Assembly (NCBI GenBank): GCA_013696965.1
Contig: JACCXN010000091.1
Span: 186,001 to 250,000, forward strand
Length of the DNA: 64,000 nucleotides
Reading direction: 5' to 3'
From: Bacteroidota bacterium
GTDB lineage: Bacteria > Bacteroidota > Bacteroidia > JACCXN01
Shown here: positions 36,688-61,300 of the stretch, one piece after another
How positions within the stretch are numbered: the stretch's first letter is position 1
Layout of the letters: the number at the start of each line of letters is the position of its first letter
Notes under the pieces: generated by a model
Told to the model about the DNA's origin: nothing
The model's database searches: none
The model's input: only the letters and a program-made list of their open reading frames with translations
Program-made: the position numbers and the translations under genes

Positions 36688-36761
36688 TCCTTCTTAGCTC
36701 AGCTGGTTAGAGCATCTGACTGTTAATCAGAGGGTCCTTGGTTCGAGCCCAAGAGAGGGAG
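36688..36761 (+). tRNA. tRNA-Asn (GTT)
   Basis: The full cloverleaf folds: acceptor stem TCCTTCT/AGAGGGA (36688-36694 with 36754-36760), anticodon stem TCTGA/TCAGA with loop CTGTTAA giving anticodon GTT at 36722-36724, and T-arm CTTGG-TTCGAGC-CCAAG. CCA is not encoded. Its 3' end is the integration site of the island that follows, and the element supplies the last bases, so the gene stays intact. Confidence 0.96.
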
Positions 36762-36762
36762 C
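36740..36762 (+). repeat. attL, in the tRNA 3' end
   Basis: This 23-base copy (GGTTCGAGCCCAAGAGAGGG then AGC) overlaps the T-arm and acceptor stem of the tRNA. It matches attR at 56,137-56,159 at 21 of 23 positions. Confidence 0.85.
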
Positions 36763-38229: not shown

Positions 38230-39396
38230 TTAGTTATATATTTTTGAAAGTTTATTCATTGATTCATATAATCCCTTTGTTAGAGACTTGGCGTATATTT
38301 GAGTAGTGCCAATATCTGAATGCCCTAATAAATCCTTTAAATAAAGTATATGGGTATCTGCTTCAATATGATTGCATGCAAATGAATTACGGGCAGAGTG
38401 AAAAGTTAATTTCTTTTTAATTCCGGTATATATCATTAATTCTTTCAGGTTTCGGTTCACAACCTGATTTGAAATTGCTTTAAACACGTTAATTTGCCCT
38501 GAGATTGCCTCTTTTTTAAGGTGCATCAGGATTGTTTTTGCCAACGGGATAATTGGTATGGTAATCTCCTTTCCCGTCTTCTCCATCACAATTTCAAGCC
38601 TGTCCGGGTTTTCTTTGATATTACTCCATTTAAGATTGACGATGTCAGAGAATCGCAATCCTGTATAACAGGCGAAAAGAAAAGTTTCTCTTGTCGTTTG
38701 AACTCTTAGTAAATCCTCTGGAAGGCTGGCTGTTTTCAATTTTTTGATCTCCTCCACCGATAAGAATGCCCTGTTTGCATCTGCCAACTTTATTTTAAAA
38801 TGATCATATGGGTTTTTATCCAGTAGATCCTTCCGAATTGCAATTTTTATAATTGTTTTTAAACATTTATGTCTTCCAAAAGTACCGCCTGTTTTATTTT
38901 TTCTTACAAGGCGCAAATACTTGTCCAATCGTTCTATCATCTCCACATCTATATCCCCAAAGTTGAGGTCGGGATTGAATTCTTTTAGTATTTGTAGGGT
39001 ATATTTATAGGACATAATAGTTGATTCTTTTTTTACCCCAATCCACAGTTGAATCTGATCTTCAAAAAACTGGTAAAAAGTCATAGCTCCTTCCCGTTTG
39101 AAGAAGTTTTTAACTACTGTTTTTGTTACTGGTTTTCCCATTGTATCCATACGTAATACATACTGGTCAAATGCCGCAATCTTCTTCCCCAGATAGGAGT
39201 TTAAAAGTTGAAAATTCGCTCCTGAAACAGCCTTTACTGAGCCTTTATCCCAGTTCACTTTCTGAATCTCCTTTCCTGTTGGAAGTTTTATTAAATGTTT
39301 ATTCAGCCTTACTAAAAAATAGAGAGGGTGCTTGCCATTTTGCTTTACGGGTTTATCGTCCCTGATGATTAACTTGATGCTGTAATTTGTTGCCAT
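38230..39396 (-). CDS. Tyrosine recombinase (island integrase)
   Basis: This 388-residue integrase has an arm-binding N-terminus (about 1-100), a SAM-like core-binding domain (about 105-195) and a catalytic domain. The catalytic set is visible: R248 in ACYTGLRFSD, H333 and R336 in FHSARNSF, H359 in LGHSDIG and the nucleophile Y368 in TTQIYAK. It is very likely responsible for insertion at the tRNA-Asn gene 1.5 kb away. It belongs to the type common in Bacteroidota integrative elements. Confidence 0.93.
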   Translation of the reverse strand: MATNYSIKLIIRDDKPVKQNGKHPLYFLVRLNKHLIKLPTGKEIQKVNWDKGSVKAVSGANFQLLNSYLGKKIAAFDQYVLRMDTMGKPVTKTVVKNFFKREGAMTFYQFFEDQIQLWIGVKKESTIMSYKYTLQILKEFNPDLNFGDIDVEMIERLDKYLRLVRKNKTGGTFGRHKCLKTIIKIAIRKDLLDKNPYDHFKIKLADANRAFLSVEEIKKLKTASLPEDLLRVQTTRETFLFACYTGLRFSDIVNLKWSNIKENPDRLEIVMEKTGKEITIPIIPLAKTILMHLKKEAISGQINVFKAISNQVVNRNLKELMIYTGIKKKLTFHSARNSFACNHIEADTHILYLKDLLGHSDIGTTQIYAKSLTKGLYESMNKLSKIYN

Positions 39397-39646: not shown

Positions 39647-41893
39647 TTATGCCGGTTTGTTTTTGGAATAATGCCCGTGCTTTAGTCTATACATAATTCC
39701 AGATTTAACAAATTTGGACAGATAACTTTCCGCTGTCTTGTACTTAATTTTAAAGTTTGTCGCTATTTTAAAGGCTTCTGAGGCAGAAAATTCTATAGGG
39801 AGATTATAAAAGAATTTTGCTTGTTCGTTATTGTTAAATTTTATCTGTTTATCATTAAATCTGGAGTATATTTCCATTGTGTGGATTCTTAAATATTCAA
39901 CTATTTTGATTGATTTTTCAAAATCAGAATCATTACAGAGTATCTCAGTTCTATTTTCACCCCACTCATCCATTAACCTTAAAGTTGTTAATATCATCGC
40001 TATTCTGAATGCCATAAGCCCTAATCTGCGAATACTGGCAATTAAATCTTCTCCAACAATTTCTTTAAACTCATTTTGCCACTTACCAAATAATTTATTA
40101 AATTGGGCTTGCTGCTCACCAGTTAATTTAAAAGTAAGTCCCACTTCCAGTTCATTTAGTTTATTATAGTGAAACAATAATTTCTCACTTAAACTTTTCA
40201 TGTACTCCGCCAGATCTACATTTCCATTATCGGCAAAAACATCCTGCCATTCTGTATCCGTGCTAAAGGCGTAAAAGGCAAATCTGCTAAATAATCCATT
40301 TTCAGCAGAGGGGATTAAAGACGATACTTGATTGGGCGTTCCACTTAAAACAACAGCAACATTAGGATTGAGTACATCAATGTATTCATCATCTGCCACT
40401 CTTAATAAAGAGACGGACTCATGGTGAAAAACCTTTCTTAAGAAATCGCTGTAATTTCCCCACTCATTATTCATTGTAAGACTTAAAGTGTCTGCCTCTG
40501 TTTCATAAATAATACCCCAGCCATCATTTTTATTTATTGTTTTAAGTACTGCCGAAGCACTACAATTTGCCGGAATGAATAAGCGTTTGCCATCCTCCAG
40601 TAATTTCTGATGTATAGCATGACCGAGGTATTTGGGATATTTTAGCACACCCTTTCCAGCAGAAGCGGGAGCAACTACAAATAAAAACAGAGGCATGCCT
40701 ACTTTGTCTTTATTATAAGTGCCATTAATATTTGGCATTAAAATACTTAATGTTGTTAATGACCCCAATAAAGCTATATCCCGTTCTTTTTGTTTGGTAA
40801 AAAGATTGCATACCTGCTCCAACAAGTTGGGTAAATTATTATAAACCTCCTCGGGAAATGTAGAAACATTAAAACTCTTAGGTGTGTTTAAAGGGGTAAT
40901 GTCGGGGATGAAGGGTTTGAGGGGAATTGGGGCATCAGTATTATTTTGAATTTCTGATGCCCTTGTTAAATCATACCCTGCTTCCTTAGCATAATACAAT
41001 AGCGTTTTAAAAGTTATTTTGTTCTGATAATTATTCAGGCAGTAATTCCATTTTGCGATAGAAGCGTTTTCATCATGTTTAGACCCGTCCAGACGGCAAA
41101 GCTGTAAATAAAGGTCTTTCCCCTTGTTGTTAGGGATGGCTGAAACAATAGCTAATGTCACCTTATACCACCGCTCATGATTATAGGTGATGGATATATT
41201 TCTACCAGTTAAAAATTTGGCTATATCTTCAGTAATTTTACTTGCAGAGACAGTATCCTTCCAATGCTTTTCGGCAATGCCATCCTGATTTATTTCACTT
41301 ACTTCCACACAAAACCTTTTTGCATCCCAGTTTATAAATATATTTGGATCGTATGACATAAAACACAACCGCTGAACATCTGAACCGCTTTTATCGATCT
41401 GTAATTTAAACTTTTGCTTGTAATATCCCTCTAAGGATTGAAACGCTATTTTATGGTCTTCCATTGAAGAGTCAACCATTACTAGGACTTTTAGTCCAGT
41501 TCCTGATGGAGATTTCCATACTGCTAAAGTATAAGGATCTTTGCTTATAAGTGTTTTGTTCTCTAGTAACCGATCAGAGATTTTATCTATATCTAATACA
41601 AGCAAATTGTTATATTCTAGGATATTCTCCTGCCTACGTCCTCCATTATAGGTAGCGCTAAAGGTAACTCCGGGGAGATTTGCTTTTAGTTCCCCGGCCT
41701 TCTTGACCTCACTCTCTGCAAAATATTGTTTTATATGACCGATAATCTTTTTAAATTTTCCGTTTTTTATGCGAAAAAGAATAACAATTAATGAAGCAAC
41801 CTTTGGCTGCCCTTGCTTAATATTTTCAAAAAAAGAAACGGTTATTTTTTTTCGGTTGATTTTCTTTGCCTTGCATTTTATTTCTGTTTTCAT
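39647..41893 (-). CDS. BT4734/DUF3987-type replication protein
   Basis: This 748-residue protein has a BT4734/VirE-type N-terminal region with LLVLDIDKI (D101 and D103), a primase C-terminal-like segment around 230-310 (NHERWYKVTLAIVSAIPNNKGKD), and a DUF3987 P-loop region with VVAPASAGKGVLKYP around residue 410. Proteins of this build accompany Bacteroidota mobile elements and probably help replicate the excised form. The family recognition is good; the biochemical step is inferred. Confidence 0.82.
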   Translation of the reverse strand: MKTEIKCKAKKINRKKITVSFFENIKQGQPKVASLIVILFRIKNGKFKKIIGHIKQYFAESEVKKAGELKANLPGVTFSATYNGGRRQENILEYNNLLVLDIDKISDRLLENKTLISKDPYTLAVWKSPSGTGLKVLVMVDSSMEDHKIAFQSLEGYYKQKFKLQIDKSGSDVQRLCFMSYDPNIFINWDAKRFCVEVSEINQDGIAEKHWKDTVSASKITEDIAKFLTGRNISITYNHERWYKVTLAIVSAIPNNKGKDLYLQLCRLDGSKHDENASIAKWNYCLNNYQNKITFKTLLYYAKEAGYDLTRASEIQNNTDAPIPLKPFIPDITPLNTPKSFNVSTFPEEVYNNLPNLLEQVCNLFTKQKERDIALLGSLTTLSILMPNINGTYNKDKVGMPLFLFVVAPASAGKGVLKYPKYLGHAIHQKLLEDGKRLFIPANCSASAVLKTINKNDGWGIIYETEADTLSLTMNNEWGNYSDFLRKVFHHESVSLLRVADDEYIDVLNPNVAVVLSGTPNQVSSLIPSAENGLFSRFAFYAFSTDTEWQDVFADNGNVDLAEYMKSLSEKLLFHYNKLNELEVGLTFKLTGEQQAQFNKLFGKWQNEFKEIVGEDLIASIRRLGLMAFRIAMILTTLRLMDEWGENRTEILCNDSDFEKSIKIVEYLRIHTMEIYSRFNDKQIKFNNNEQAKFFYNLPIEFSASEAFKIATNFKIKYKTAESYLSKFVKSGIMYRLKHGHYSKNKPA

Positions 41894-44427: not shown

Positions 44428-44525
44428 TTTCCCCTTCTGTTTCCCCCTTTTGAAAATCATTAAGGCAAAAATTCCACCGCCTTCAACCCGACTGATAAAA
44501 TGGTTCGACCCTAAACAGGGGTGGG
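44428..44525. repeat. Degraded internal att-like site with TTTCCCCT pair
   Basis: GGTTCGA starts at 44502 and the following bases match attL at 15 of 23 positions. A TTTCCCC pair starts 74 bases to its left (44428 and 44440); at attR the pair starts 72 bases to the left of the core. The same arrangement suggests a fossil att site joining two elements. Confidence 0.4.
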
Positions 44526-45086
44526 ACTTTTTGAAATGACTTTTAAATCATTAGAATTGACTGATAATTCCATAAGTTCAATTAAATCTGTTGCAGAACC
44601 TGTTGTATAATCAAATTTATTTGATCCAAATGATTTAAGGATCTCCTGAATATTTATTGTTTCTACATTGTGGCTTTTGATGAAAGTTAGCTCCTGTGGG
44701 TTTTTTACATTTCCATAAACAAACAGAAATTTCCAGTCCTCAGAACCTGTCAAACGGTGTCTGATTTGTTTTTTCTTTTCACTAAGAAACTTCTTCTGAA
44801 TCCAATCCTGAACAGCGAGTTCAAGTTGTTCATTTGTTCTCTTTGTAGCGTTACCTGAACCTTTGATAGAAAACTCCTCTTGTCTTTCTTTGGTTAAACC
44901 GGATATATAGTTTACAGGCCTTATGCTTACCTGAACCTCAACATGGATTTTTTCCCATTCTCCATTCCCTTTATTTTTTATTGCTAAGAGATCAATTTCA
45001 TCAATACCCATCTTTAATCCACGGATAGTAAAATACCCCTTTCTGGTCAGCCATTCTTCCACTACCTGTTCAGCTAATAGTGCCAT
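44511..45086 (-). CDS. Putative PD-(D/E)xK nuclease-like protein
   Basis: The protein is about 191 residues from the ATG at 45086 (ALLAEQVVEEWLTRKGY); the start at 45218 adds a hydrophobic leader of doubtful reality. An N-terminal helix with E10 and E11, then IDEIDLLAI and HVEVQVS, gives the E...D...ExQ order of restriction-endonuclease-like folds. The rest contains a helical linker and a short strand set. It is divergent from the XRE regulator, 141 bases apart. It could be an orphan nuclease or a toxin-like effector; this is inference from motif order. Confidence 0.5.
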   Translation of the reverse strand: MALLAEQVVEEWLTRKGYFTIRGLKMGIDEIDLLAIKNKGNGEWEKIHVEVQVSIRPVNYISGLTKERQEEFSIKGSGNATKRTNEQLELAVQDWIQKKFLSEKKKQIRHRLTGSEDWKFLFVYGNVKNPQELTFIKSHNVETINIQEILKSFGSNKFDYTTGSATDLIELMELSVNSNDLKVISKSPTPV

Positions 45087-45227
45087 TTTTTTGGTTCTGA
45101 ATTTATAATTTGATATTAATTTTGGTAACAACAAAATCTCTTTGGTAATAGCAAATATAAACATAAAAAACCTATCGGTGGCATTAAAAACACCGAAATT
45201 TTGAATCAAAAGTCCCAATATTGAATT

Positions 45228-45492: not shown

Positions 45493-47508
45493 TTATTTCA
45501 ATTGTTTCTGTTTTTTCTTTTGTTTAATTTTTGGCTGTTCTTCTTCAAAGTCATAAGTCAGTGTCAAGTCAATAAAACGATCTGATTTGATTAGTTTATC
45601 AAATTGTTTTTTAAGTGATTTATATTCTTCGTCCTCATTTATTAAAGTATTTCGTAGAATTTGATAATGCCTTAAAAATTCTCTGATGGCAGGATTTGTC
45701 GTCCTTTCATTAATGTCTGTAAAGTTGCTTGTCTCAATGATTGCTTTAGCTTCTTCCCACTCGTTACTCTTTCTGATAGCTTGATACTCTTTTTTCCAGA
45801 TGTCAGTATAACCAAGTTGTCTTTCAAAGACACTTCTGTAAACAATATATGTCTCAGGCATATAAAGAATTTCAAAAAATTCTTCAATATTGTTGCCGAA
45901 TGCTTTATGAAAGAATGATGTTTTATCATTTCTTGTTGCAGGGGCAACAATGCCTTTTGTTACATTCAAAACAGATTGAATGGCTCGAATAAATTTTTTA
46001 TTCCAGAATTTACCTGTGTAATCTCGATTTTTTGCTTCTTCACCAAAAAGCGGGATGTACTTCATAGGAAATGAAAAGATAGCAATATTATATTCTTTGC
46101 AGAGCTGAATATTTATTTCTAAACGATTATATAAGTCTTCTGGTTTGTCCTTAAAGTTATAAAGAATGTAATTTGAAAGTTCACGAATACCATACTTTGC
46201 TGCTAATTTTACTGCATTTTCATATTGTTTCCTCATGCCAATATAATCAAATGCTATCCTTAATGGTCTGATTGGAATTTCACTCATCAACTTCATTAAC
46301 TCGTCTGTTACATACCTTGCGTCAGTTCCTTGGTTAAAATCTACATAACGTAACTTAGGTGATTTATTCCTGTATTTTTCATTTAGGTTTTTAAGCTCTT
46401 TGTATGCATTTAATAGATTTTCTTTTGATGTAGTTTCAAGTTTCAGAAGCTGATAGTTATCAAGTACATTATAAGCAAATTGTTTGTTTTCTCCTTTTAA
46501 TTTATTGATTAAATCTTGAAACAGTCTATATGTTCTCCTGATGTATGCCTTTTGATTTGGATGATTTATTAAATTTTTAATTGATATATCTAATTGATTA
46601 GGTTCTATAAATGTTGCTCCTTTTACAAAACCCATTTCTTTTATTTCTTGTATTATTTCAGGAAAGTTTGGCGAAGCCAAAACATTGTTGTCCATCAACA
46701 AAAGATTTTGCTGTTCACCATAAAGTTCTTTGATTTCAAAAAACTTATCATAGGTTTCAATTTTTGGTTTGTATGTTGGTTCTAAAATTGGGACAGAGCA
46801 AAAGGCACATTTTCTTGTGCAACCTTTTGTCATGAAGGTAAAGTATGCACTTTGTGTTGGATACTGATATTCTATTTCATCAAGAATGGAGTAATCAAGT
46901 GCTAAATTATCAATAATAGTTTTGTCGCCTTTGTCAAGAATACCTGGTTTGTCTAATAATCCTTGATGTGGTTTTATCCCGGTTTCTGCCTCTAATTCAT
47001 CGTGTAGCAATGAAGCTAAAACACCACCAACAAATATTTGTTTTGGGTCTTTAACTAACTTTTTCACGAAGTGTATCGTTTCAACAGTTATCTTCCAATA
47101 AAATGTAAAAAGTGTTGTTACATAAATTTTATCCCAATATGGCTCATTTTCATATTCCTTCTTTCTGAATTTAATTGAAAATTCCTCTAATGCCTTTGAT
47201 ATTAGATGCCCGTATTTCAAGTTTTCGATTTCAAAAACATCTAAGTTTTGCCTTTTGCCTGTCTTAATAAACTGTTTTATAAAAAAAGCCTTTTGTATCC
47301 ATTTGATTGAATTGTCAATTAAATTTAATTTCTTTAAACATTCATCGAATAGCTGCTCAACAACTAGATCTTTCAAATCACCTTTAAAGAACTTTACGTC
47401 ATCGCCTAAACTACGATGATACGTAGCTATTTTCATCAACCCAATTGGAGGATATTTGTTTTTATAGTTTGGTTCTACTAATAATATTTTTCGTTTTGCC
47501 GTGCTCAT
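45493..47508 (-). CDS. Radical SAM enzyme with N-terminal B12-binding-like region
   Basis: The protein is 671 residues from the ATG at 47508 (MSTAKRKILLVEPNY). The N-terminus ILLVEPNYKNKYPPIGLMKIATYHRSLGD resembles the cobalamin-binding-type domain seen before many radical SAM domains. The radical SAM cluster motif is C230-x3-C234-x2-C237 in MTKGCTRKCAFCSVP. The C-terminal third has no assigned domain and ends in a Lys/Gln-rich tail. It is the last gene of the operon and starts only one base after the stop of the HSP90-like gene. The substrate is unknown. Confidence 0.8.
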   Translation of the reverse strand: MSTAKRKILLVEPNYKNKYPPIGLMKIATYHRSLGDDVKFFKGDLKDLVVEQLFDECLKKLNLIDNSIKWIQKAFFIKQFIKTGKRQNLDVFEIENLKYGHLISKALEEFSIKFRKKEYENEPYWDKIYVTTLFTFYWKITVETIHFVKKLVKDPKQIFVGGVLASLLHDELEAETGIKPHQGLLDKPGILDKGDKTIIDNLALDYSILDEIEYQYPTQSAYFTFMTKGCTRKCAFCSVPILEPTYKPKIETYDKFFEIKELYGEQQNLLLMDNNVLASPNFPEIIQEIKEMGFVKGATFIEPNQLDISIKNLINHPNQKAYIRRTYRLFQDLINKLKGENKQFAYNVLDNYQLLKLETTSKENLLNAYKELKNLNEKYRNKSPKLRYVDFNQGTDARYVTDELMKLMSEIPIRPLRIAFDYIGMRKQYENAVKLAAKYGIRELSNYILYNFKDKPEDLYNRLEINIQLCKEYNIAIFSFPMKYIPLFGEEAKNRDYTGKFWNKKFIRAIQSVLNVTKGIVAPATRNDKTSFFHKAFGNNIEEFFEILYMPETYIVYRSVFERQLGYTDIWKKEYQAIRKSNEWEEAKAIIETSNFTDINERTTNPAIREFLRHYQILRNTLINEDEEYKSLKKQFDKLIKSDRFIDLTLTYDFEEEQPKIKQKKKQKQLK

Positions 47509-47509
47509 T

Positions 47510-49048
47510 CTAATTATATTTATCAACTATTCTTTTTTTGATTTGCTCGGAAAGATAAAAGTCTAGTTCTTCCTCTAAAATTTCAAATATTCCCAAAACT
47601 ACTGCTTTTTGCTCTTCGTTTAATTTATCGAAAACTGGAGGCGTATATTTACTAACCTCTAGTTCACTATCAGACAGACCCTTTAAAGAAATTGTCTTAT
47701 CTGCCAATATATTGTCCACTAGATTTCCTACATTGCTTGACAATGAGCCTTTCCGGATTATTCTATCAATTTCATTTTTTGCTTTAAGTGCTTTAACCTT
47801 CAATTCCGTCAACCTGCTAAGATGAAATGATTCTGTAGCTTCATTCTCGAATGCACCTCTGTTTTCTACAAAATTCTCATAAACTTTGTTATATTTTTCA
47901 ATTGTATCTAATCCATTATGAAGCTTTGATGCTGCTTGAGCCAATCTATTTTCCAAATTTTCTAATTTAAAAATCTCTGCTGCCTTTTCCTGAAATTGTA
48001 GACAAGTAGAATTCTCTACAAAATAATCTCGTCTGGCATTTGGTCTAAAACCATCACTTACAGTATGTATTTCTCCAATGAATCTTAAATTAGTCCTTTC
48101 TTGGCCAAAAAATCTATTACAGGTCATTTCGTTGCCAATTGCAATATTTTTTGTACGTAATCGAATACCCTTTTCGTAATCGAGATCAGATAACTTTACA
48201 TTAGATAACGCTCTATATCCGTACCAACATACTGCCAATAAATTTTGATCATCATCTAGAATATCAACAAAATCAACGCCAATCAGTTTAGACTCTTCTT
48301 CATTTCTTCCTAAAAATGTATTTTTATATCTTTTAAATAAAGTTTCCCCATTTATTTCAACATTATATTCGTCTAGAACTGCATTTTTATTTTTTAAATA
48401 TGATTTTATTTCTTCGATAAAAGAAAAGTTGGCGGCAAATGGAACTGGAGCCACCATAGATAAATACTCAGTTACTTTATTGGTATCTAACACAGTGTTA
48501 AAAGCATTATTAAGTGTAACGCGGAAATAATGTTTATCTACTTCTTCCTCAGTTTTCTCAATTTTTGTAATAATACTTATCGCTGCAGCTGCATCACTAT
48601 TGTCATTTCGGTTCTCTATAATCTTTTTTAAAAGCTTTGCATCAAGGGTCATTTTGCTTTTCACTGATTCACCAAAATAACTTGTTTCAAAAATTAGCTT
48701 ATCACAATAACCTAAACCTCCTAAACGACCTATCCCCCTAAATCCTTTTTGCCTTACACTATCTTTTTGAGAGTTGGCAACGTCTCCTAAGAAACGTAAT
48801 ACTTCCTTTTCTGAAACTCCTGTCGCATTATCATTTACTATAATGAGTTTACTGACGGAGTCTATAGTAATGTCAATTTTGCCTTCGCTTTTTTCTTTTA
48901 ATATTCCTAACTCAACTGCCACATCAATTTGGTCTGCTGCATTTTGGATATATTCACGGAAAATAAATCTTGCATCGTCATACATACCCGATGTTAAGGT
49001 TTCCAAAACCGTTTTACCTATCGTTGGGTTAAATTGTTTTTCCATCAT
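47510..49048 (-). CDS. HSP90-like GHKL ATPase B
   Basis: This 512-residue protein has the GHKL ATPase motifs: N-box REYIQNAADQI (E32, N36), the DNATG motif (D73) and the lid KGFRGIGRLGGLGYC (about 101-115). The N-terminal half is therefore an HSP90-like ATPase; the C-terminal half has no recognised domain. It is clearly paralogous to the gene at 51284-52828. Its start overlaps the preceding stop by an ATGA, so it is translationally coupled. Confidence 0.85.
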   Translation of the reverse strand: MMEKQFNPTIGKTVLETLTSGMYDDARFIFREYIQNAADQIDVAVELGILKEKSEGKIDITIDSVSKLIIVNDNATGVSEKEVLRFLGDVANSQKDSVRQKGFRGIGRLGGLGYCDKLIFETSYFGESVKSKMTLDAKLLKKIIENRNDNSDAAAAISIITKIEKTEEEVDKHYFRVTLNNAFNTVLDTNKVTEYLSMVAPVPFAANFSFIEEIKSYLKNKNAVLDEYNVEINGETLFKRYKNTFLGRNEEESKLIGVDFVDILDDDQNLLAVCWYGYRALSNVKLSDLDYEKGIRLRTKNIAIGNEMTCNRFFGQERTNLRFIGEIHTVSDGFRPNARRDYFVENSTCLQFQEKAAEIFKLENLENRLAQAASKLHNGLDTIEKYNKVYENFVENRGAFENEATESFHLSRLTELKVKALKAKNEIDRIIRKGSLSSNVGNLVDNILADKTISLKGLSDSELEVSKYTPPVFDKLNEEQKAVVLGIFEILEEELDFYLSEQIKKRIVDKYN

Positions 49049-49857
49049 TTACTATATTTCTTTTTTACACTATTTGGAATATTATTTCCCTCGTCTGACA
49101 AATCATGTCCGTGATATATAAGTTCACTTGTTTTGATAAAACGAACAAAGACATTGTTTTCCATATCAAAATTATAGTAATGCCCTTCGTGAAAAAATGC
49201 TTTATCTAAAAGTTCTTGAGCTTTTGAAGTATTTCCTTCTCGTTCATTATAACAACTCAAAAACGAAATTTCTCCTCCTGATTTATACATATCGTGTTTG
49301 GGATTGTGTTGAAACTTTATTTGATATTTTTCAAAAAAGTTTATTACCTCTTTGTCTGAGTTATAGTAAAGAGTATCTATTTCTGACTTTTCATTTAGTT
49401 TATTTTCTATTGACAAATTGGTTTGGGTATTATAAAAATGCTTATAAGCTATAAACTTATGTTCAAGTGCATGGTTAAACAAATGAACAACGAGATGGTT
49501 ACTTTCTTCTTTAATTTTTTGATTAAAATGATTCTTAATAATATCGGGAATAGTTGTCAAATCATTTTCTTTTGATTCTTCATATATACTCCATTTATTG
49601 TCAATCAAAAATCGTAATGTTTGTGCACTATAATAGGAAAACCCCATATCATCTATATCAGCAAATGGAAATTCTGTTGCTATTGTTTCAAAAAGTTCAT
49701 TACGTAATAATATGGGCAGTTTTAGTTTTTTTATTTGCTCGAAAACAGTAGGCACAATAATTAATAATTCAAAAAAATAATTTTTGTTACTATTGTAATC
49801 TTCTTTGCTCCAAATAAATGTAGATATATCTATTACTGCAGTAAAACTCATACTCAT
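49045..49857 (-). CDS. Hypothetical protein of the operon
   Basis: This 270-residue protein begins with a hydrophobic strand FTAVIDISTFIW that might open a PIN-like fold, but the rest does not confirm it. The C-terminal region (about residues 185-262: NPKHDMYKSGGEISFLSCYNE, NFDMENNVFVRFIKTSELIYHGHDL) looks like a conserved small domain. I do not recognise the family. ATGA overlaps at both ends couple it to the AAA ATPase and HSP90-like B genes, so it is part of the system. Confidence 0.6.
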   Translation of the reverse strand: MSMSFTAVIDISTFIWSKEDYNSNKNYFFELLIIVPTVFEQIKKLKLPILLRNELFETIATEFPFADIDDMGFSYYSAQTLRFLIDNKWSIYEESKENDLTTIPDIIKNHFNQKIKEESNHLVVHLFNHALEHKFIAYKHFYNTQTNLSIENKLNEKSEIDTLYYNSDKEVINFFEKYQIKFQHNPKHDMYKSGGEISFLSCYNEREGNTSKAQELLDKAFFHEGHYYNFDMENNVFVRFIKTSELIYHGHDLSDEGNNIPNSVKKKYSK

Positions 49858-51287
49858 TTTTTATTTAATCTTTTTTTCATTTGTGCTCTTAAAATTGCCT
49901 TTAATTCACCATCTTGATTTTCAATAAAATCTTCTGGATAAGGAAGTTCAACAATGCCAAAATCATCAATTGTGATATTATTAAACAACACGTCATTTTT
50001 TCCTACTTCAACAAATGTCAATAAAACTTTATCATCCAATTGGTTGCTTGTGTCTTCTGCAATTCGTCTTCTCAACCTCGTTATTAAGTGGTCGCTGTGT
50101 GTTTCTATTACTACTTTTTTGCCTTGTTCTACCAATGAGATTAAAAAATCTGTTAGATTGCTTTGAACTTTTGGGTGTAAGTGTATTTCGGGTTGTTCCA
50201 AAATTAACGTTTCATTTTCTTCAATTCGTAAACCTTCAACTATGATTGGTAAAACTTGGCTAATACCAAAACCAACGTGTTTAATTGTGGATTCTATTCC
50301 GGATAAACTTTTAACATAGATGATGTAAGAGTCAGCTTCTTTCTTCGAATAAATATCAGCACACAATTTAAATCTTTCACAAAGCCAATATTTCACTGCA
50401 TTTAAAAAACTATCTTCAACTTTAACAAAACATACGCTTTCACTTATATCTTCAATTTTAAAAAAAGTTATTGTTTGTTTGGACAACTCGTAGAATGCTT
50501 CAGCCACATTGCCTCCGTCAATTCCAACAGAATTACTTTTACCATACAAAGAATACTCATCTTTTGGAGCCAGGCGAAGTGGCCCAACATAGTTTAGATT
50601 AGCAAAAAAATCCTTGATAACTGTTTTAATTCCATCAAATTTTAAAACCGCTTTACTGGTACTTTCTACATCTTTTTTATTACCCTTTAAATCAATAATT
50701 TCTGTTTTGAATTCCAATTCAACATCAGATGGGAAAAAAGATGAAAAATTTATCTTCCTAACCTTATACTTTCCCTGTTCTTTATATAACTCGTCATTAA
50801 AAACTGCAACATTTGTATTAATTGATAAATCATCATTAATTTCAAATTTAATATTGTGTTCTTGTATTTCAGTGTCATTCGTAATAAACTTTACTTCAAA
50901 AAGCGAAACAGTTATTTTATTATCTCTTAAATCAAATTCTAAAGTAATGTTTAAGTCATAATTATCAAACGCATTATGAATGCTTATCTCAGGAAAATGA
51001 TTGTATTTGGTTAATTCTGATTTATTGAATGTAAAACCAACTTTTAATTTATTACTTTGTTTTTTATCCTTAATGATGTCAAGATAATCACGTACTTTAA
51101 ATAATTTGCCATCAATATTTAAAGCATTGTCTTTATTAATCGTTTCTAATGACTGTTTTAAAAATAGTAATAATTGAATAAAAGACGACTTTCCTGAACT
51201 ATTTGTACCAGACAAAATAGTCAATGGCCGCATCTCATAATTTACTAGTGAACCGATTGACTTAAAATTAAATATTGATAGTTTCAT
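49854..51287 (-). CDS. AAA/ABC-type ATPase with DUF3696-like C-terminus
   Basis: This 477-residue ATPase of the SMC/OLD-like type has Walker A GTNSSGKSS (27-35), signature FGISQVLPI near 340, Walker B TLILEQPEIHLHP (360-372) and the switch region VVIETHSDHLITR (392-404). The C-terminus (DDFGIVELPYPEDF) resembles the DUF3696 motif. Proteins of this type occur in defence islands with nucleases. It is coupled to both neighbours by ATGA overlaps. Confidence 0.85.
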   Translation of the reverse strand: MKLSIFNFKSIGSLVNYEMRPLTILSGTNSSGKSSFIQLLLFLKQSLETINKDNALNIDGKLFKVRDYLDIIKDKKQSNKLKVGFTFNKSELTKYNHFPEISIHNAFDNYDLNITLEFDLRDNKITVSLFEVKFITNDTEIQEHNIKFEINDDLSINTNVAVFNDELYKEQGKYKVRKINFSSFFPSDVELEFKTEIIDLKGNKKDVESTSKAVLKFDGIKTVIKDFFANLNYVGPLRLAPKDEYSLYGKSNSVGIDGGNVAEAFYELSKQTITFFKIEDISESVCFVKVEDSFLNAVKYWLCERFKLCADIYSKKEADSYIIYVKSLSGIESTIKHVGFGISQVLPIIVEGLRIEENETLILEQPEIHLHPKVQSNLTDFLISLVEQGKKVVIETHSDHLITRLRRRIAEDTSNQLDDKVLLTFVEVGKNDVLFNNITIDDFGIVELPYPEDFIENQDGELKAILRAQMKKRLNKK

Positions 51288-52828
51288 TTATATTCTTCTT
51301 CTAATTTTTGAATTAATAATTCTGCGGTTTCTTTGGGCAAAACATTTTTTATTACTCCAAAGATATTACTTAAAAATTTCTTTTGTTCCTTTTTCAACTT
51401 AGAAAGTTTATCAACTCTAAAGACTGGCTTCGTTTCAACATTGGGAACAAAATCAGTCGCAATATCAAATGAAGTATTTGAAGATGCTCGTTCTAATATT
51501 TTATTGATTGGTGTATGTGTGACTCCGTTTTTATTTTTAATGGTTTCAAGTTTTGAACTTGCTTTAATTGCTTCTCCTTTCTTCTTTTCAAGAGTTTCCA
51601 AGAATGCTTTTTTCTCTTTAATGTCAACAAAACCTTCTTTCTCCTTTTGCTTATATTGAGTTATCGTTTCGTTGTAGCTATTAATGGTTTTTACAGCACT
51701 ATTTACTTCTGATGCTGTGTAGCAAAGTTTATGAATTGTTGTGTGAAAGAAAGTTTTTAACTTGTTTTCAAATTCATAATAAGTGTTTGTCTCAGAAAAG
51801 TTATCTCGCCTTGCATTAGGAATTAAATCTTTGTGCAAACCATATACTTCACCAAAAAAGTAAAATTGAAATCTCCTGTCTCTTTGCAATTTGGTTAAAG
51901 TGTCTTCATTACCAATTTGAATATTGGATTTGCGTAATCTAAAACCTCTTGAATAATTTATTTGATTAAGTGATTGATTCTTCTCAGTTATTCCATACCA
52001 ACCCAAAAACAATTTGATATTTTCGCTGTCGTATTCTTTGAAAAATAAAACATCTATAACTTCTCCAATTTTTTTGCGGTTGCTTTGGTCAGTTCCTTCA
52101 TAAATGTATGAGTTGTAGCCTTTGAAAAGCTGGTCAGTATTTATGAATGTCTTGTATTCGTCAATAGTTATTTCTTCCTTTTCGAGTTCATCATAAATCT
52201 TACGAGCATACACAAAAGAATTACTGAACGGTACTGGTGCAACCATTGACAGATAATTTCTGATTTCCTTTACATCCAACAAATCTTTATTAGTTACGCC
52301 AATAAGAGAGACTTTAAAATAGTGTAATTCAGCTTTTTCTTTTACTTTAATAAGTGTTGTTACTTCATCAATTACTGCTGAGGCTTCTTCTTTTTGACTT
52401 CTGTTGTTGATTATGCTTTTCAATTTTGTTGCATCCCAAGTCATTATTGATTTAACCGCTTCTCCTTTAAATGAAGTTTCAAAAACCAGCTTATTACAGT
52501 AGCCTAAACCGCCTAATCTTCCAATGCCTCTGAAGCCTTTATCTACACCTCTTTGTTTAGTTGATTGAGCAATATTTTTTAAGATTTCTACAACCTTGTT
52601 TTCTTCAATACCTGTTGCATCATCTTCTACGGAAATTATTTTTTTGTCTGCATCAATTGAAATGTGAATTTCTCCTTCATTAACTAATCCTTGTTGTCTT
52701 GCCTTATCTATTTGATCGGCAGCATTTTGAATATACTCTCGATAAATAAACCTTGAATCATCATACATTCCAATTGTAAGTGATTCAATAACATCTTTAC
52801 CAATAATTGTTTTATTGAATTTATCCAT
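51284..52828 (-). CDS. HSP90-like GHKL ATPase A
   Basis: This 514-residue protein has the N-box REYIQNAADQI (E31, N35), a D70-A-T-G motif and the GFRGIGRLGGLGYC lid (98-111). It shares most of its first 110 residues with gene B of the operon, so the two arose by duplication. The C-terminal half is unassigned. It overlaps the HerA-like gene by 8 bases and the AAA gene by an ATGA. Confidence 0.85.
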   Translation of the reverse strand: MDKFNKTIIGKDVIESLTIGMYDDSRFIYREYIQNAADQIDKARQQGLVNEGEIHISIDADKKIISVEDDATGIEENKVVEILKNIAQSTKQRGVDKGFRGIGRLGGLGYCNKLVFETSFKGEAVKSIMTWDATKLKSIINNRSQKEEASAVIDEVTTLIKVKEKAELHYFKVSLIGVTNKDLLDVKEIRNYLSMVAPVPFSNSFVYARKIYDELEKEEITIDEYKTFINTDQLFKGYNSYIYEGTDQSNRKKIGEVIDVLFFKEYDSENIKLFLGWYGITEKNQSLNQINYSRGFRLRKSNIQIGNEDTLTKLQRDRRFQFYFFGEVYGLHKDLIPNARRDNFSETNTYYEFENKLKTFFHTTIHKLCYTASEVNSAVKTINSYNETITQYKQKEKEGFVDIKEKKAFLETLEKKKGEAIKASSKLETIKNKNGVTHTPINKILERASSNTSFDIATDFVPNVETKPVFRVDKLSKLKKEQKKFLSNIFGVIKNVLPKETAELLIQKLEEEYK

Positions 52829-54479
52829 TTTTATACTGTTTGTAAAGTGGTCTTGGAAACTTAATATTCAATAATGACCTGAATATAGGATTTTGTAAAA
52901 TATATTCACCTTGCTTCAATCTTGTTAACATTGATTTGTAAACTGGGGGTACGAATTTATAATCCGGTTTTGAAATTTCTATTGCATTCGTTCTTCCATA
53001 TGCGTGAGTTGCACAATTCCCTTTAACACGGTCGTGTATATCACTTTTGAATTGCTCTGCTGCAAACAAAATAATTCCCAAAGAGCGTCCTCTTTCTGTT
53101 ATGTCCAACAATTGTCTTAAAATCGGTGAATTTTTTGGCACATCCTTACTTCCGTATTTGTTCAGCTCGTCAATAAATATTACAATTTTAGAAGGAATTT
53201 CAGCTTCTTCTCTGTCTGTAATTTGTCCAAGTTTTAAATCGTATATTGCTCTCATAACATCACCAAACACAAAGCCTTGTGCTTCTTCATCAAGTTTGGC
53301 AATGTCAATAACGTGAATATCGTTTTTCTTAATTTGCTTTATAGATTCATGTAAACGAACTTCTGTTCCATCGTTTTTAAGCGAGTTTGAGAAGAATAAA
53401 TTTCGCTCTAAAGCTTTTCTAAAAAGGCGATAAAATTTTCTCCAACTCAAGACCGAAATAGTTTTGTCTTTTCCTGTATCTCCTTTTTCTTGGTGCTTTT
53501 TTATTTCTTCTTTTAGATCTTCCCAATTCGTAATTCCATTGAAATGCCCCTCACCTGAGGTTATGTAATTTACAATTGATTCCATTGATTGTGTTGGGTC
53601 ATCAATGTTTGAAAAAAGCAAATCTAAACTCTCTTTATCTTCTTCAAATAGATATTTGTATTGAAATGCCTTTTTGAGTTTCTTCTGACTTTCAACATCC
53701 TTTACATCAGCGTATGTGGTGGATTTAGTATCTTTAGAAAATGGATAGAAATATTTTACATTTTTAAAAGGGGTGGTTTCAATTTCTAAATCTTTATAAA
53801 TTTTTTTGTCCTCTTTTGTTAGTTCATCATTACTTTCATCAATAGCTAATAAATCCCTGCCTTTTACATTAAGCAAAACGAAAGCAACGCTTTCATTCGG
53901 GTCATTTTTAATGTATTGTTCTTGTATAGCTTTTAATAAGAACATAGCATACGAAGTTTTTGAAGCTAATCCTGAAATTCCTGAAATATTTAGATGTGCT
54001 CCTTCGGGGCCAATTAAAAAATGTGAATTGAAATGAACAGGAACTGTTATTTTATCTTCGTCCTCATACATTTCGATTACACCACAAGGCAAAGGATTTT
54101 TAATTCCTTTTAAGCCTAAAGCCATTTTTACATCTTCTTCATTAGCGAGCGAAACTGTATATCCGTCTAATACTGGGGTATAAATATTTTCAGAATTGGC
54201 TACAACTTTAGCTTTTACATAGTTCATTCCTATTCTCTGTGTGTAGCTTTTTGATTCAACTTCTCCAAAATCGCTAGAAATGTATCCTGCTAAAAAACTT
54301 GCTGCATCAGTTAAATGGGATATTTCTTCCACAACACCAAAGGTTACAGAGTTTTTTATATGTTCTACTTTTACAACATCAAATGGTTTTATAATTAGGT
54401 GTTTGTCTGTCCAAAAGAAAAATTCATCTACTGTTGTAGGAACTTTTTCAGTGGCAATAATTTTTCCTATTTTTTTCAT
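52821..54479 (-). CDS. HerA-like ATPase
   Basis: The protein is 552 residues from the ATG at 54479 (MKKIGKIIATEKVPTTVDEFFFW), which matches the HAS-barrel-type opening of HerA. The TAATG overlap with the NurA-like stop supports this start over the upstream frame at 54569. Walker A is a degenerate ISGISGLASKTS (165-176), where Ser replaces the second Gly of the canonical GSGKS. Walker B is IVIFIDEL (432-439), followed by the arginine-containing ITERGRSLGI. HerA proteins pump or translocate DNA and pair with NurA nuclease, which precedes it here. Confidence 0.8.
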   Translation of the reverse strand: MKKIGKIIATEKVPTTVDEFFFWTDKHLIIKPFDVVKVEHIKNSVTFGVVEEISHLTDAASFLAGYISSDFGEVESKSYTQRIGMNYVKAKVVANSENIYTPVLDGYTVSLANEEDVKMALGLKGIKNPLPCGVIEMYEDEDKITVPVHFNSHFLIGPEGAHLNISGISGLASKTSYAMFLLKAIQEQYIKNDPNESVAFVLLNVKGRDLLAIDESNDELTKEDKKIYKDLEIETTPFKNVKYFYPFSKDTKSTTYADVKDVESQKKLKKAFQYKYLFEEDKESLDLLFSNIDDPTQSMESIVNYITSGEGHFNGITNWEDLKEEIKKHQEKGDTGKDKTISVLSWRKFYRLFRKALERNLFFSNSLKNDGTEVRLHESIKQIKKNDIHVIDIAKLDEEAQGFVFGDVMRAIYDLKLGQITDREEAEIPSKIVIFIDELNKYGSKDVPKNSPILRQLLDITERGRSLGIILFAAEQFKSDIHDRVKGNCATHAYGRTNAIEISKPDYKFVPPVYKSMLTRLKQGEYILQNPIFRSLLNIKFPRPLYKQYKNG

Positions 54480-55645
54480 TAAAATAAATTTAAAAAATTG
54501 ATGTCGCTTAAATACTTGCTTTTTATGAAACTCTCTGTTAAGTGTATGGGATAAAGGTGGTTCGCCCATCTTGCATCTTTACCGTAACATACTGGATTTC
54601 TTTCGTTGATGATGTTTGCTGTTATCAAATCAATTTCTTGACTGTCTAATCCGTTTTCAATTTCTTCGTCAGTGATTAATATTTTTTCAATTTTAACCAC
54701 ACCTGAAAATGGGCTAAATGTGTGTTCGGATTTTCGAATTCTAACATACCAAACTGCAAAAAACACATTCCCAACTCTTTCGCTTTTGTATTTATATGCA
54801 GGCGTTCTGTGATAAATTGGCAAAATAGCAATTTTATCAGCGTTGCTCTTGTTATTTTTATCCCTACATAATTCTGGGTCAAACATTTTTGATACACCAA
54901 TAACACATTTGTAATGACTTTTAAACTTAGAAAGTTCTTTAAAGTTTGAACTTCTTGCTGGTGCATACTGTAATGAACCGTCTTTTATTAAATATCGGTC
55001 TGGGTTTATTAAATTCTTTGTACTTAGATGTGCAACAATTTTCTTTTCAGTATCTATCATTTCATCTTGAATTGTTGCAATTCCTAATTGTTCGTATTTG
55101 AGACCACCTTCTTGCTTTTTTGAATCGTAGGAAAGAATTTTTGAAAAACTTACCTGTGTTTTTTCAATTCGTTTTGTTTTGTTGATTTTGCCAGCCAAAG
55201 CATTAAAAAACAAGGTGGCATCGCCACCATTTGGGTTTGCTCCTTTTGGCAAAGACAAAACAAGGCTGTGTTGAAATTCAGCACATTTGAATTGGCTTGG
55301 GTTATTCCTTTCACAGCATGCAACACCAATCTGCCCTGCAATAATTGGATAAACATTTCTGTTTATTTCAATGTCGTCAACTTTGTAAGTTCTTCTTGAA
55401 CCATCTAAGAAAAAATGAAATAGTGGGTCATGGTTTATTATTTTGTCAGCAAGTGTTTTTAAACTTTTAGAGGTGTTGAGGTTCGTGTCGGTTTCGCCAA
55501 ATTCTTTTAATACTACCGATATTTCCTTTTCTTTCGAGTCAAAGTCAAGCGTCGGAACTCTGATTTCATCGTCAGCACAGTAGCGAAAAGATGTATAACA
55601 CTTTCCATTTGTCTCATTTGCAACTATGTCTAATACCTTATCCAC
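54479..55645 (-). CDS. NurA-like nuclease
   Basis: This 388-residue protein has the two acidic motifs expected of NurA: FLDGSRRTY (D81) and LIKDGSLQY (D222). The C-terminal WANHLYPIHLTESFIKS resembles the NurA tail. It is placed directly before a HerA-like ATPase with which it overlaps by one base, the usual partnership. It is the first gene of the operon. The NurA call is inferred from motif order and partner; an isolated search could place it in a related nuclease family. Confidence 0.7.
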   Translation of the reverse strand: MDKVLDIVANETNGKCYTSFRYCADDEIRVPTLDFDSKEKEISVVLKEFGETDTNLNTSKSLKTLADKIINHDPLFHFFLDGSRRTYKVDDIEINRNVYPIIAGQIGVACCERNNPSQFKCAEFQHSLVLSLPKGANPNGGDATLFFNALAGKINKTKRIEKTQVSFSKILSYDSKKQEGGLKYEQLGIATIQDEMIDTEKKIVAHLSTKNLINPDRYLIKDGSLQYAPARSSNFKELSKFKSHYKCVIGVSKMFDPELCRDKNNKSNADKIAILPIYHRTPAYKYKSERVGNVFFAVWYVRIRKSEHTFSPFSGVVKIEKILITDEEIENGLDSQEIDLITANIINERNPVCYGKDARWANHLYPIHLTESFIKSKYLSDINFLNLF

Positions 55646-56136: not shown

Positions 56137-56159
56137 GGTTCGAGTCCAAGAGAAGGAGC
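56137..56159 (+). repeat. attR, remnant of the tRNA-Asn 3' end
   Basis: This 23-base copy reads GGTTCGAGTCCAAGAGAAGG then AGC and differs from attL only at positions 9 and 18. It marks the right junction of the island. No complete tRNA is present here. Confidence 0.85.
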
Positions 56160-58248: not shown

Positions 58249-58319
58249 TCTTGAATCTGAAAAAAGGATTATTCGATTGTTATCCACATGCTATTTTTAC
58301 ACCCCCAAAATATACCTTT

Positions 58320-61300
58320 ATGAAGAAAATTTTTACTTTTTTTTCGGCACTACTTCTTTCAAATTTCTTAATTGCACAAAATGACGCTGCTTTAGCAGCA
58401 CCAAACGGTACTTTTTTGGCTCCCGTAAGCGGATGTTCTTTAACTTCAACTGAAAATGTTACGGTTAGGATTTTTAATTTCGGCCCTGGTGCAATTACTA
58501 CTGGATTTGATGTTTCCTATTCCATAAATGGAGGACCTTCAGTAATAGAAACCGTTTCAGCCCCAATAAACATCCCTGCAAACACTTCATTTACCTATAC
58601 TTTTTTATCGCAGGCGAATTTATCTATACAGGGAACCTACACCCTGGATGCATCCGTTATTTTGGCTGGTGACCCAACTCCTGGAAACAACACTTATTCA
58701 GGATATGTTGTTAATTCATTAGAACCATCTAATGGAGGTACGGTTTCAGGCCCTGCATCGGTGTGTATTAGTGGAAATAGCGGCTTTCTAACCCTTGGTG
58801 GAAACAACGGAAACATTCTTCGTTGGGAGTATTCAACAGATGGGGGCGGAACCTGGGTGAATATTTCAAATACTTCCACAATTCAAAATTATAACAATTT
58901 AACTGTTCCAACTATGTATAGAGCTGTGGTTCAAAATGGTTCTTGTGCTTCAGCCAATTCTTTGCCATTAAGCATTGGAATTGATCCCGTTACTATTCCG
59001 GGAAACACCGCGGGTGCAACAACTGTTTGTAGTGGAACAAATTCAGGAAATGTTACTTTGAGTGGCAATACAGGAACGATAACCAATTGGGAGTTTTCAA
59101 TAGACGGAGGAATAAGCTGGAGTATTATTGCCAATACAACTGCTACTTTGTCCTATTTAAATATTACTCAAACTACAAGATATAGAGCAGTTGTAAAAAG
59201 CGGGGCTTGTTCTGCTTCAAATTCGTCAATTACTATAATTACTGTAAACCCTCCAACAATAGGTGGAAATCTATCACCTTTGTCAACAACCGTATGTAGC
59301 GGTGCAAATAGCGGAACACTTACCTTAAGTGGACAATCCGGAAGCATTATACGCTGGGAAGTTTCAACAAACTCTGGAAGTACCTGGACTAACATTACCA
59401 ATACCACAACAACCCTAAACTACTTAAATTTAACTCAGACTAGCTTATATCGCGTTAGAATTCAAAGCACAGGTTGTCCTGCATTATATTCCGATACTGC
59501 CACTGTAACAGTAAATCCTCCAACCGTTGCAGGCACCCTTTCAGCTGCAGCCACTGTTTGCAGTGGAACCAATAGCGGAACTTTAACCCTTGCTGGCTCT
59601 AGTGGAAGCATAATAAGATGGGAATTTTCTATTAATGGAGGTGGATCCTGGACAAATATTGCAAATACCACAAATACTCAAAACTACACAAATCTAATCA
59701 CAACAACACGGTACAGAGTAAGAGTTCAGAATGGCATTTGTACTGCCCTGAATTCAAATGCAATTGACATTACTGTTAATCCTCTTAGTGTTGGTGGAAC
59801 AATTTCTGGAACAACAACAGTATGCGGCAATACAAACAGCGGCACTTTAACACTTAGCGGAAATACCGGCAGTGTTCAACGCTGGGAATCTTCTATAAAT
59901 AATGGTACAACCTGGGATATTATAGTCAATACCACTACTACTCAAAATTATTCAAATCTTCCAACAACAACTTGGTATAGAGCTAATTTGATGAATGGAG
60001 TATGTGCTGCAGCATATTCTGACACTGCAATAATTACTTTTGCTCCGGCAACTGACCCAGGAATTCTTTCAGCAGATGCGACAGTTTGCAGCGGAACTAA
60101 TACAGGAACTTTAACTTTATCAGGCTATTCCGGCACTATTATCAGATGGGAATTTTCTATTAATGGAGGTGGATCCTGGTCAAATATTGCCAACACTACC
60201 GACAGCCATGTATATAACAATCTTACAACCACAACAAGTTTTAGGGCTCTGGTACAAAATGGAAGTTGTCCTGTTTTATACTCAAACTTTATTGTAATTT
60301 CTGTTAATCCCGTAACCATTGGGGGTACAGTTTCAGGTGCCACCACTGTTTGTAGCGGAAACAATAGCGGAACACTTTCTTTAAGCGGGCATACAGGAAC
60401 AATTATAGAATGGGAATTTTCTATAGATGCTGGAACAATTTGGTCTTCAATTGCAAATACCAGCAATTCACAAGCCTTTGTAAATTTAACAACTACTACT
60501 ATTTACAGAGCAGTTATTCAAAGTGGAGTTTGCCTTGCTGAGCGCTCAACTGAAGAAACAATTACTGTTGATCCTATTACTGATGGAGGAAGTGTTTCTG
60601 GTGCAACTACTGTATGTTCTGGCGCAAACAGTGGAAATGTTAGCCTTGTTGGCAATATTGGCAATGTATTGAATTGGGAATTTTCAACTGATAATGGAAA
60701 TTCCTGGATTAATATTTCAAATAATACTACTACACAGAATTACAATAATATTACAACGCCAACTATGTATAGAGTCCTTGTTCAAAGTGGTCTTTGTAGT
60801 TCTGCCTACTCAAGCACGGCACTTGTTAATGTTAACCAACCCTCTGCAGGTGGTACTATTTATGGAGCAACAACAGTATGTAGTGGCTCAAACAATGGAA
60901 CATTATCCTTAATTGGAATTTCAGGAAATATTATTGGCTGGGAAGAATCTACGGATAATGGAGTATCCTGGGTAGCAATAGCCAATACAACATCCACTCA
61001 CAATTATAACAATCTTTTAATTCCAACTCATTTTAGGGCAATTGTACAAAGTGGAATTTGTTCTCCGGAATTTTCATCAATTGCAATAATTAACGTTGAT
61101 GTAAACTCTGTTGGAGGTTTAGTATCTGGAAATGCAACTGTTTGCGCAGGTTCTAATAACGGCACTGTTACTTTAAGTGGTGAAACAGGCAATGTAATTG
61201 GATGGGAATTTTCAACGGATGGAGGCATTAGTTGGATTCTCCTTTCTAATACTACTTCTTCTCAAGATTATTTCAACATATCAGTTACAACCATGTACAG

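Follow-up and report, generated by a model that had tools for sequence, protein, structure and literature searches.

What common task could join a NurA-like nuclease, a HerA translocase, two Hsp90-like ATPases, a DUF3696 ATPase, an NsnC-like protein and a radical SAM enzyme in one tightly packed operon of a Bacteroidota bacterium? The operon lies on the minus strand at 45493-55645 of the window (the whole stretch of 64,000 nucleotides analysed) and, as the preliminary description had claimed, consists of seven coupled genes, all of whose reading frames are present. They encode the NurA-like nuclease (54479..55645; 388 aa), the HerA translocase (52821..54479; about 552 aa), the Hsp90-like ATPase GHKL1 (51284..52828; 514 aa), a DUF3696/OLD-like ABC ATPase (49854..51287; 477 aa), the NsnC-like protein (49045..49857; 270 aa), a second Hsp90-like ATPase, GHKL2 (47510..49048; 512 aa), and the radical SAM enzyme (45493..47508; 671 aa), respectively. 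The first three and the last are referred to below as core genes 1 to 4, and the three in between as cassette genes 1 to 3. The junctions, read directly from the sequence, are of the types originally described: TAATG at NurA/HerA, an 8-base overlap at HerA/GHKL1, three ATGA overlaps (GHKL1/DUF3696, DUF3696/NsnC-like and NsnC-like/GHKL2) and a gap of one base at GHKL2/radical SAM. The last of these assumes the conserved ATG at 47508 as radical SAM start instead of the TTG at 47526; likewise, conservation places the HerA start at ATG 54479, not at the upstream 54569. A promoter scan gave a result no better than shuffles. Just downstream of the operon and still within the mobile element described below, a 235-aa reading frame (44511-45218) without any Pfam match carries a 'GIDEIDLLA...VEVQ' stretch that resembles PD-(D/E)XK nucleases.

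The NurA and HerA assignments were upheld by profile comparison with both chains of one solved complex, 7F6D. The HerA profile matched the HerA chain over its full length (7f6d_B; E=8e-100), with the Walker B motif DELNKY and the P-loop Lys/Thr conserved, and the NurA profile matched the C-terminal part of the NurA chain (7f6d_H; E=1.8e-4). The identity of NurA is strengthened by a match to the profile of Mre11/Rad50-linked NurAs (hhalign 96%, E=4.5e-9) and by the invariance of D81, E200, D222, K253 and H363 in 23 homologues; the three acidic residues among them are presumably catalytic, a role that we take from family knowledge. Neither Mre11 nor Rad50 was found by Pfam among the seven genes, and they are neighbours only at distant HerA loci, which are without GHKL or radical SAM. 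The Deinococcus radiodurans NurA-HerA (7F6D; PMC9960219) is thus similar in its adjacent genes, in HerA throughout and in the C-terminal part of NurA, yet it was described as a pair and studied in DNA repair, and neither a GHKL nor a radical SAM enzyme is reported as its partner.

The two Hsp90-like GHKL ATPases were likewise confirmed. Both match HATPase_c_3 above the Pfam cut-off and the HtpG/Hsp90 N-domain at E=5e-16, and both carry the Hsp90-type ATP-binding (Bergerat-fold) motifs, with the N-box E..QN..D, DxxxG and GFRGIGR motifs conserved in GHKL1; identity between GHKL1 and GHKL2 is 37%. For the radical SAM enzyme, the Pfam Radical_SAM match (E=6.9e-6) falls below Pfam's own cut-off, and the assignment is borne out by a CxxxCxxC motif invariant in 20 homologues together with a predicted structure (pLDDT 81.5) that confirms the fold and matches MgmA, TsrM, AprD4 and OxsB (E from 7e-7 to 2e-4). 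As modelled, the enzyme has a cobalamin-type fold with an N-terminal Rossmann-like domain; cobalamin binding is putative, and AprD4, which shares this fold, is counted as a caveat on cobalamin use.

To see how far this gene set recurs, relatives were gathered from genomes, viral contigs, plasmids and phages; for HerA in viral contigs, a single-sequence query found none, whereas an alignment query did. The order NurA-HerA-GHKL...radical SAM is kept in all 35 loci that span it, the window included; these are mostly from Bacteroidota, also from Clostridium, Thioploca and viral contigs, and five of them are near-identical rumen genomes. In the phylum, a close HerA orthologue is present in five of 396 sampled genomes, the same five that hold a full-length radical SAM orthologue, with a radical SAM fragment in one further genome. 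The exception is L039, a Planctomycetota metagenome-assembled genome with a fragmentary HerA apart from the rest of the core, possibly on a chimaeric contig. A chance assembly, the outcome that the preliminary description had set against its proposal, is therefore not borne out by this constant core order. The claim of a single coupled machine was sustained in part: the seven genes are not invariant, but a four-gene core recurs, with the three-gene cassette absent or replaced in most relatives. The operon is thus a four-gene core (NurA-HerA-GHKL-radical SAM) plus an exchangeable three-gene cassette. One further pattern was considered as the sign of a protective enzyme, namely six broken NurA, HerA or GHKL1 genes versus zero broken radical SAM genes at complete loci. 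It was dropped because its length-adjusted significance is about 0.1 by our own estimate, assembly errors may contribute, and L184 holds an isolated radical SAM gene fragment without the rest of the core.

The cassette occupies a slot between GHKL1 and the radical SAM gene. This slot is empty in 24 of the 35 loci and holds DUF3696, NsnC-like and GHKL2 genes in four (the window, L012 of Chryseobacterium, L041 and L180), GHKL3 plus an unknown protein in six, and in one (L017) a gene for a 485-aa protein, without Pfam match and by eye membrane-anchored with a HAD-like part. Moreover, two truncated loci (L018 and L043) bear DUF3696 and NsnC-like genes ahead of a single GHKL. The boundaries of the slot are sharp, as DNA homology ends at the end of GHKL1 and restarts no more than about 12 bases from where the radical SAM gene begins. 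For example, to either side of a 2.6-kb insert between the GHKL1 stop and the radical SAM start, the DNA of L010 and L034 is 90-93% identical. Furthermore, the HerA-tree sisters L012 and L013 (85%) bear different cassettes, and ten cassette changes are needed on the HerA tree where the least possible is four, so cassette type does not track core descent.

Of the cassette proteins, the DUF3696 ATPase matches Pfam AAA_15 (3.5e-21) and, among the best 25 of its 64 PADLOC families, NsnB (5.4e-58) and HEC-03B (1.4e-49), with a match to MAD3 over its N-terminus. The next protein has a weak and partial PADLOC match to NsnC (4.9e-4); among the 396 sampled genomes of the phylum it occurs in three, each of which also has the core, and none was found in viral contigs. 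A PIN nuclease identity for it, considered because the protein opens with 'LDIS' at its N-terminus and because PIN-like plus GHKL pairs exist elsewhere, gained no support: the AlphaFold model is unreliable (pLDDT 59), and its comparison with known folds gave nothing significant.

The operon sits at one end of a 19.4-kb element inserted at tRNA-Asn (36688..36762; plus strand), whose 3′ end (36740-36762) forms the left repeat. The right, attR-like repeat (56137..56159; plus strand) is identical to it at 21 of 23 positions, a pairing that none of 100 shuffles equalled. Within the element are a tyrosine integrase (38230..39396; minus strand; Phage_integrase, 2.4e-21), an HTH gene and a BT4734-like/DUF3987 protein gene (39647..41893; minus strand). 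The repeat pair, with an integrase inside, supports the integrated island of the preliminary description. Five relatives keep the PfkB-tRNA-Asn neighbourhood, and the stretches read there, some of which are short, showed no gene of the island. In a relative (L177; G403), a gene that by eye resembles type I restriction methyltransferases lies beside the same tRNA-Asn, so this site may be a defence hotspot. Just outside the element, at 58251-63650, is a gene for a repeat protein of 1799 aa that bears a type IX secretion domain (CHU_C).

The surroundings of the related loci point towards defence. At E<=1e-20, the 128 proteins of the flanks gave matches to 162 PADLOC families, foremost among them the methyltransferase and specificity subunits of type I systems and type IV restriction enzymes, versus ten families for 128 proteins in control regions, which are without those restriction genes; the numbers of families include redundancy, and only four genomes supplied the controls. 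L012, for example, lies by eye amid type I restriction genes. Upstream of the core in L024 (3655-4434) is a PP-loop gene, QueC-like by eye, with kinase-like neighbours, which may be another defence cluster. The gene set of the preliminary description is thus real and recurring; it includes DNA-degrading machinery, resides in a mobile island and has defence genes as neighbours; from this context we infer a defence role.

The radical SAM-GHKL pair is not confined to NurA-HerA, as alphaproteobacterial plasmids (of Rhizobium, Bradyrhizobium and Roseomonas) and several viral contigs carry it without them. Its partners there are ParB-like proteins, a short protein with the nuclease-like motif EAKT, an SNF2 helicase and, in many cases, a DGQHR protein. 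At L072, L073, L075, L078, L079, L081, L082, L084, L150 and L152-L154 these make up an apparently unnamed second system, in the order ParB-like, short EAKT protein, SNF2, usually a second ParB-like, (DGQHR), radical SAM and GHKL. The L082 DGQHR protein matches DndB (5.6e-8) and DpdB (7.5e-20), and the L073 SNF2 helicase matches ZorD (3e-44) and DpdE (2.5e-36). Novosphingobium pNL1 lacks the helicase but has the DGQHR and PIN-like genes, and four plasmids of the second architecture additionally encode a PIN-like protein accompanied by a GHKL of its own, which parallels the cassette of the window. The window locus has no DGQHR (DndB/DpdB) gene, and this gene is almost always absent from the NurA-HerA form (exception, L019). 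An Hsp90-like GHKL accompanies nearly every full-length radical SAM enzyme. A short radical SAM relative, phrog_9298 (L085-L149; L155-L158), is common in viral contigs; in annotated phages it has DNA methyltransferase, PAPS reductase or ParB genes nearby, without GHKL. In Marinitoga camini virus 1 (L044), genes for NurA, HerA and a short radical SAM protein are side by side.

Is this system already known? The proposal of an undescribed system holds for the core, whose combination has apparently not been described; part of the cassette has known kin, the DUF3696/NsnC-like pair being related to the Menshen B gene and, more weakly, to the C gene. In PADLOC, NurA and the radical SAM enzyme have zero matches, the GHKL and HerA matches are weak and no model covers the core; no description of its gene combination was found in an open library of 5.39 million papers. 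The core combination is thus provisionally rated as new, and the DUF3696/NsnC-like cassette represents a variant of something already known. The reading of the operon as Menshen, MADS, Dpd or HerA-SIR2/DUF4297 with extra genes would draw on the similarity of cassette genes 1 and 2 to NsnB and NsnC and on the mad8 and mad3 matches. However, in Menshen (NsnABC) terms the pair is here a cassette within a NurA-HerA operon without NsnA, for which none of the seven proteins gave a match at E<=0.1 (for the DUF3696 ATPase, among its best 25 of 64 families). As to MADS, HerA weakly matches mad8 (1e-7) and the DUF3696 ATPase matches MAD3 at its N-terminus, but no methyltransferase or other mad gene is among the seven (same limit for the DUF3696 ATPase). 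HerA-DUF4297 and SIR2-HerA (PMC11291478) also couple a HerA ring to an effector, yet a different one, in two genes and without GHKL or radical SAM; neither DUF4297 nor SIR2 was matched among the seven proteins in PADLOC, Pfam and NCBIfam (for the DUF3696 ATPase in PADLOC, again the best 25 of 64 families). Dpd/Dnd (PMC10853773) is approached where the radical SAM-GHKL pair adjoins DndB/DpdB-like DGQHR and DpdE/ZorD-like SNF2 proteins, but no DpdA or DndC/D/E was seen at those loci, and the window lacks DGQHR. HerA-FtsK and BREX-related capture (PMC10853773, PMC12839542) similarly places HerA and nucleases in mobile anti-invader operons, although with ORC/Cdc6 ATPases, wHTH proteins or PglZ; the texts of both papers contain no GHKL and no NurA, and they mention radical SAM solely when commenting on DndC. 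With these partners unmatched and NurA and radical SAM outside PADLOC, identity with any of these named systems is very improbable.

Our preferred reading, to which we give roughly even prospects, is that the operon may be a mobile, modular anti-invader system for DNA degradation, in which the radical SAM-GHKL pair would control or mark DNA. HerA and NurA, as ring translocase and nuclease, would thread DNA and destroy it, and the Hsp90-like GHKL, as an ATP-driven conformational switch, might load or license them. A DNA-destroying engine gated by the GHKL is suggested by the archaeal HerA-NurA, which digests DNA exonucleolytically whatever the end structure and for which an antiviral role was proposed (PMC12977600), and by HerA-DUF4297, whose mode of defence is DNA degradation (PMC11291478). 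The slot would carry exchangeable accessory sensor-effectors, here the DUF3696 ABC ATPase, its NsnC-like partner and their own GHKL. The radical SAM enzyme would most likely modify nucleic acid or a nucleotide, for self/non-self discrimination or priming, since the pair serves two unrelated engines, adjoins DndB/DpdB-like proteins and has phage relatives amid DNA-modifying genes. The link to DNA modification is indirect, because the NurA-HerA form nearly always lacks a DGQHR gene. Moreover, duplex DNA is a rare substrate for radical SAM enzymes, and methylases of amino acids and proteins are among the fold matches; both points count against a DNA mark. The order of these events and the nucleic-acid target of the radical SAM enzyme are likewise what we infer. 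A more far-reaching version, which is conceivable but well short of probable, would make radical SAM-GHKL a self/non-self module independent of the engine: the enzyme would install or sense a new DNA or nucleotide modification, the GHKL would gate whichever engine is attached (NurA-HerA or SNF2 plus ParB/DndB-like), and the short copy in phages would be a counter-measure.

The alternatives differ mainly in what the radical SAM enzyme acts on. It might modify one of its partners in the complex (HerA, NurA or GHKL) or a phage protein, with the GHKL as chaperone of maturation and the DNA unmarked. This would suit top fold matches such as MgmA, a protein glutamine methylase, and TsrM, as well as the GHKL beside nearly every full-length enzyme; yet the engines differ wholly (NurA-HerA versus SNF2/ParB), which leaves the GHKL as sole shared protein target, and the short phage versions lie among DNA-modifying genes without a GHKL. 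We regard it as rather unlikely. That the product of the enzyme is a small antiviral nucleotide or signal, made in the manner of viperin and parallel to DNA degradation, has a precedent in viperins as a known antiviral radical SAM family (PMC10732462) and in the suggestion that DndB/ParB-type proteins may act on nucleotides (PMC10853773). However, no viperin match was obtained in NCBIfam or PADLOC, which makes this unlikely. The fold also argues against it, being here of the cobalamin type, to which viperin does not belong.

A role outside defence, as a module for DNA repair or element maintenance on mobile elements, is decidedly unlikely. It would accord with NurA-HerA as a repair complex in Deinococcus (PMC9960219) and with Mre11-Rad50 beside distant HerA loci, but the latter are the loci devoid of GHKL and radical SAM, and the very sparse distribution (5/396 genomes), the swapping of cassettes and the restriction-gene neighbours speak against it.

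If the defence role is true, the operon would represent a family that keeps a cobalamin-type radical SAM enzyme and an Hsp90-like ATPase as its constant parts, while the DNA-destroying engine and the accessory effectors are exchanged. It would become testable what, viperins aside, radical SAM enzymes contribute to immunity, and for what reason defence systems that target DNA repeatedly include GHKL ATPases. The exact exchange of cassettes provides natural chimaeras for experiments.
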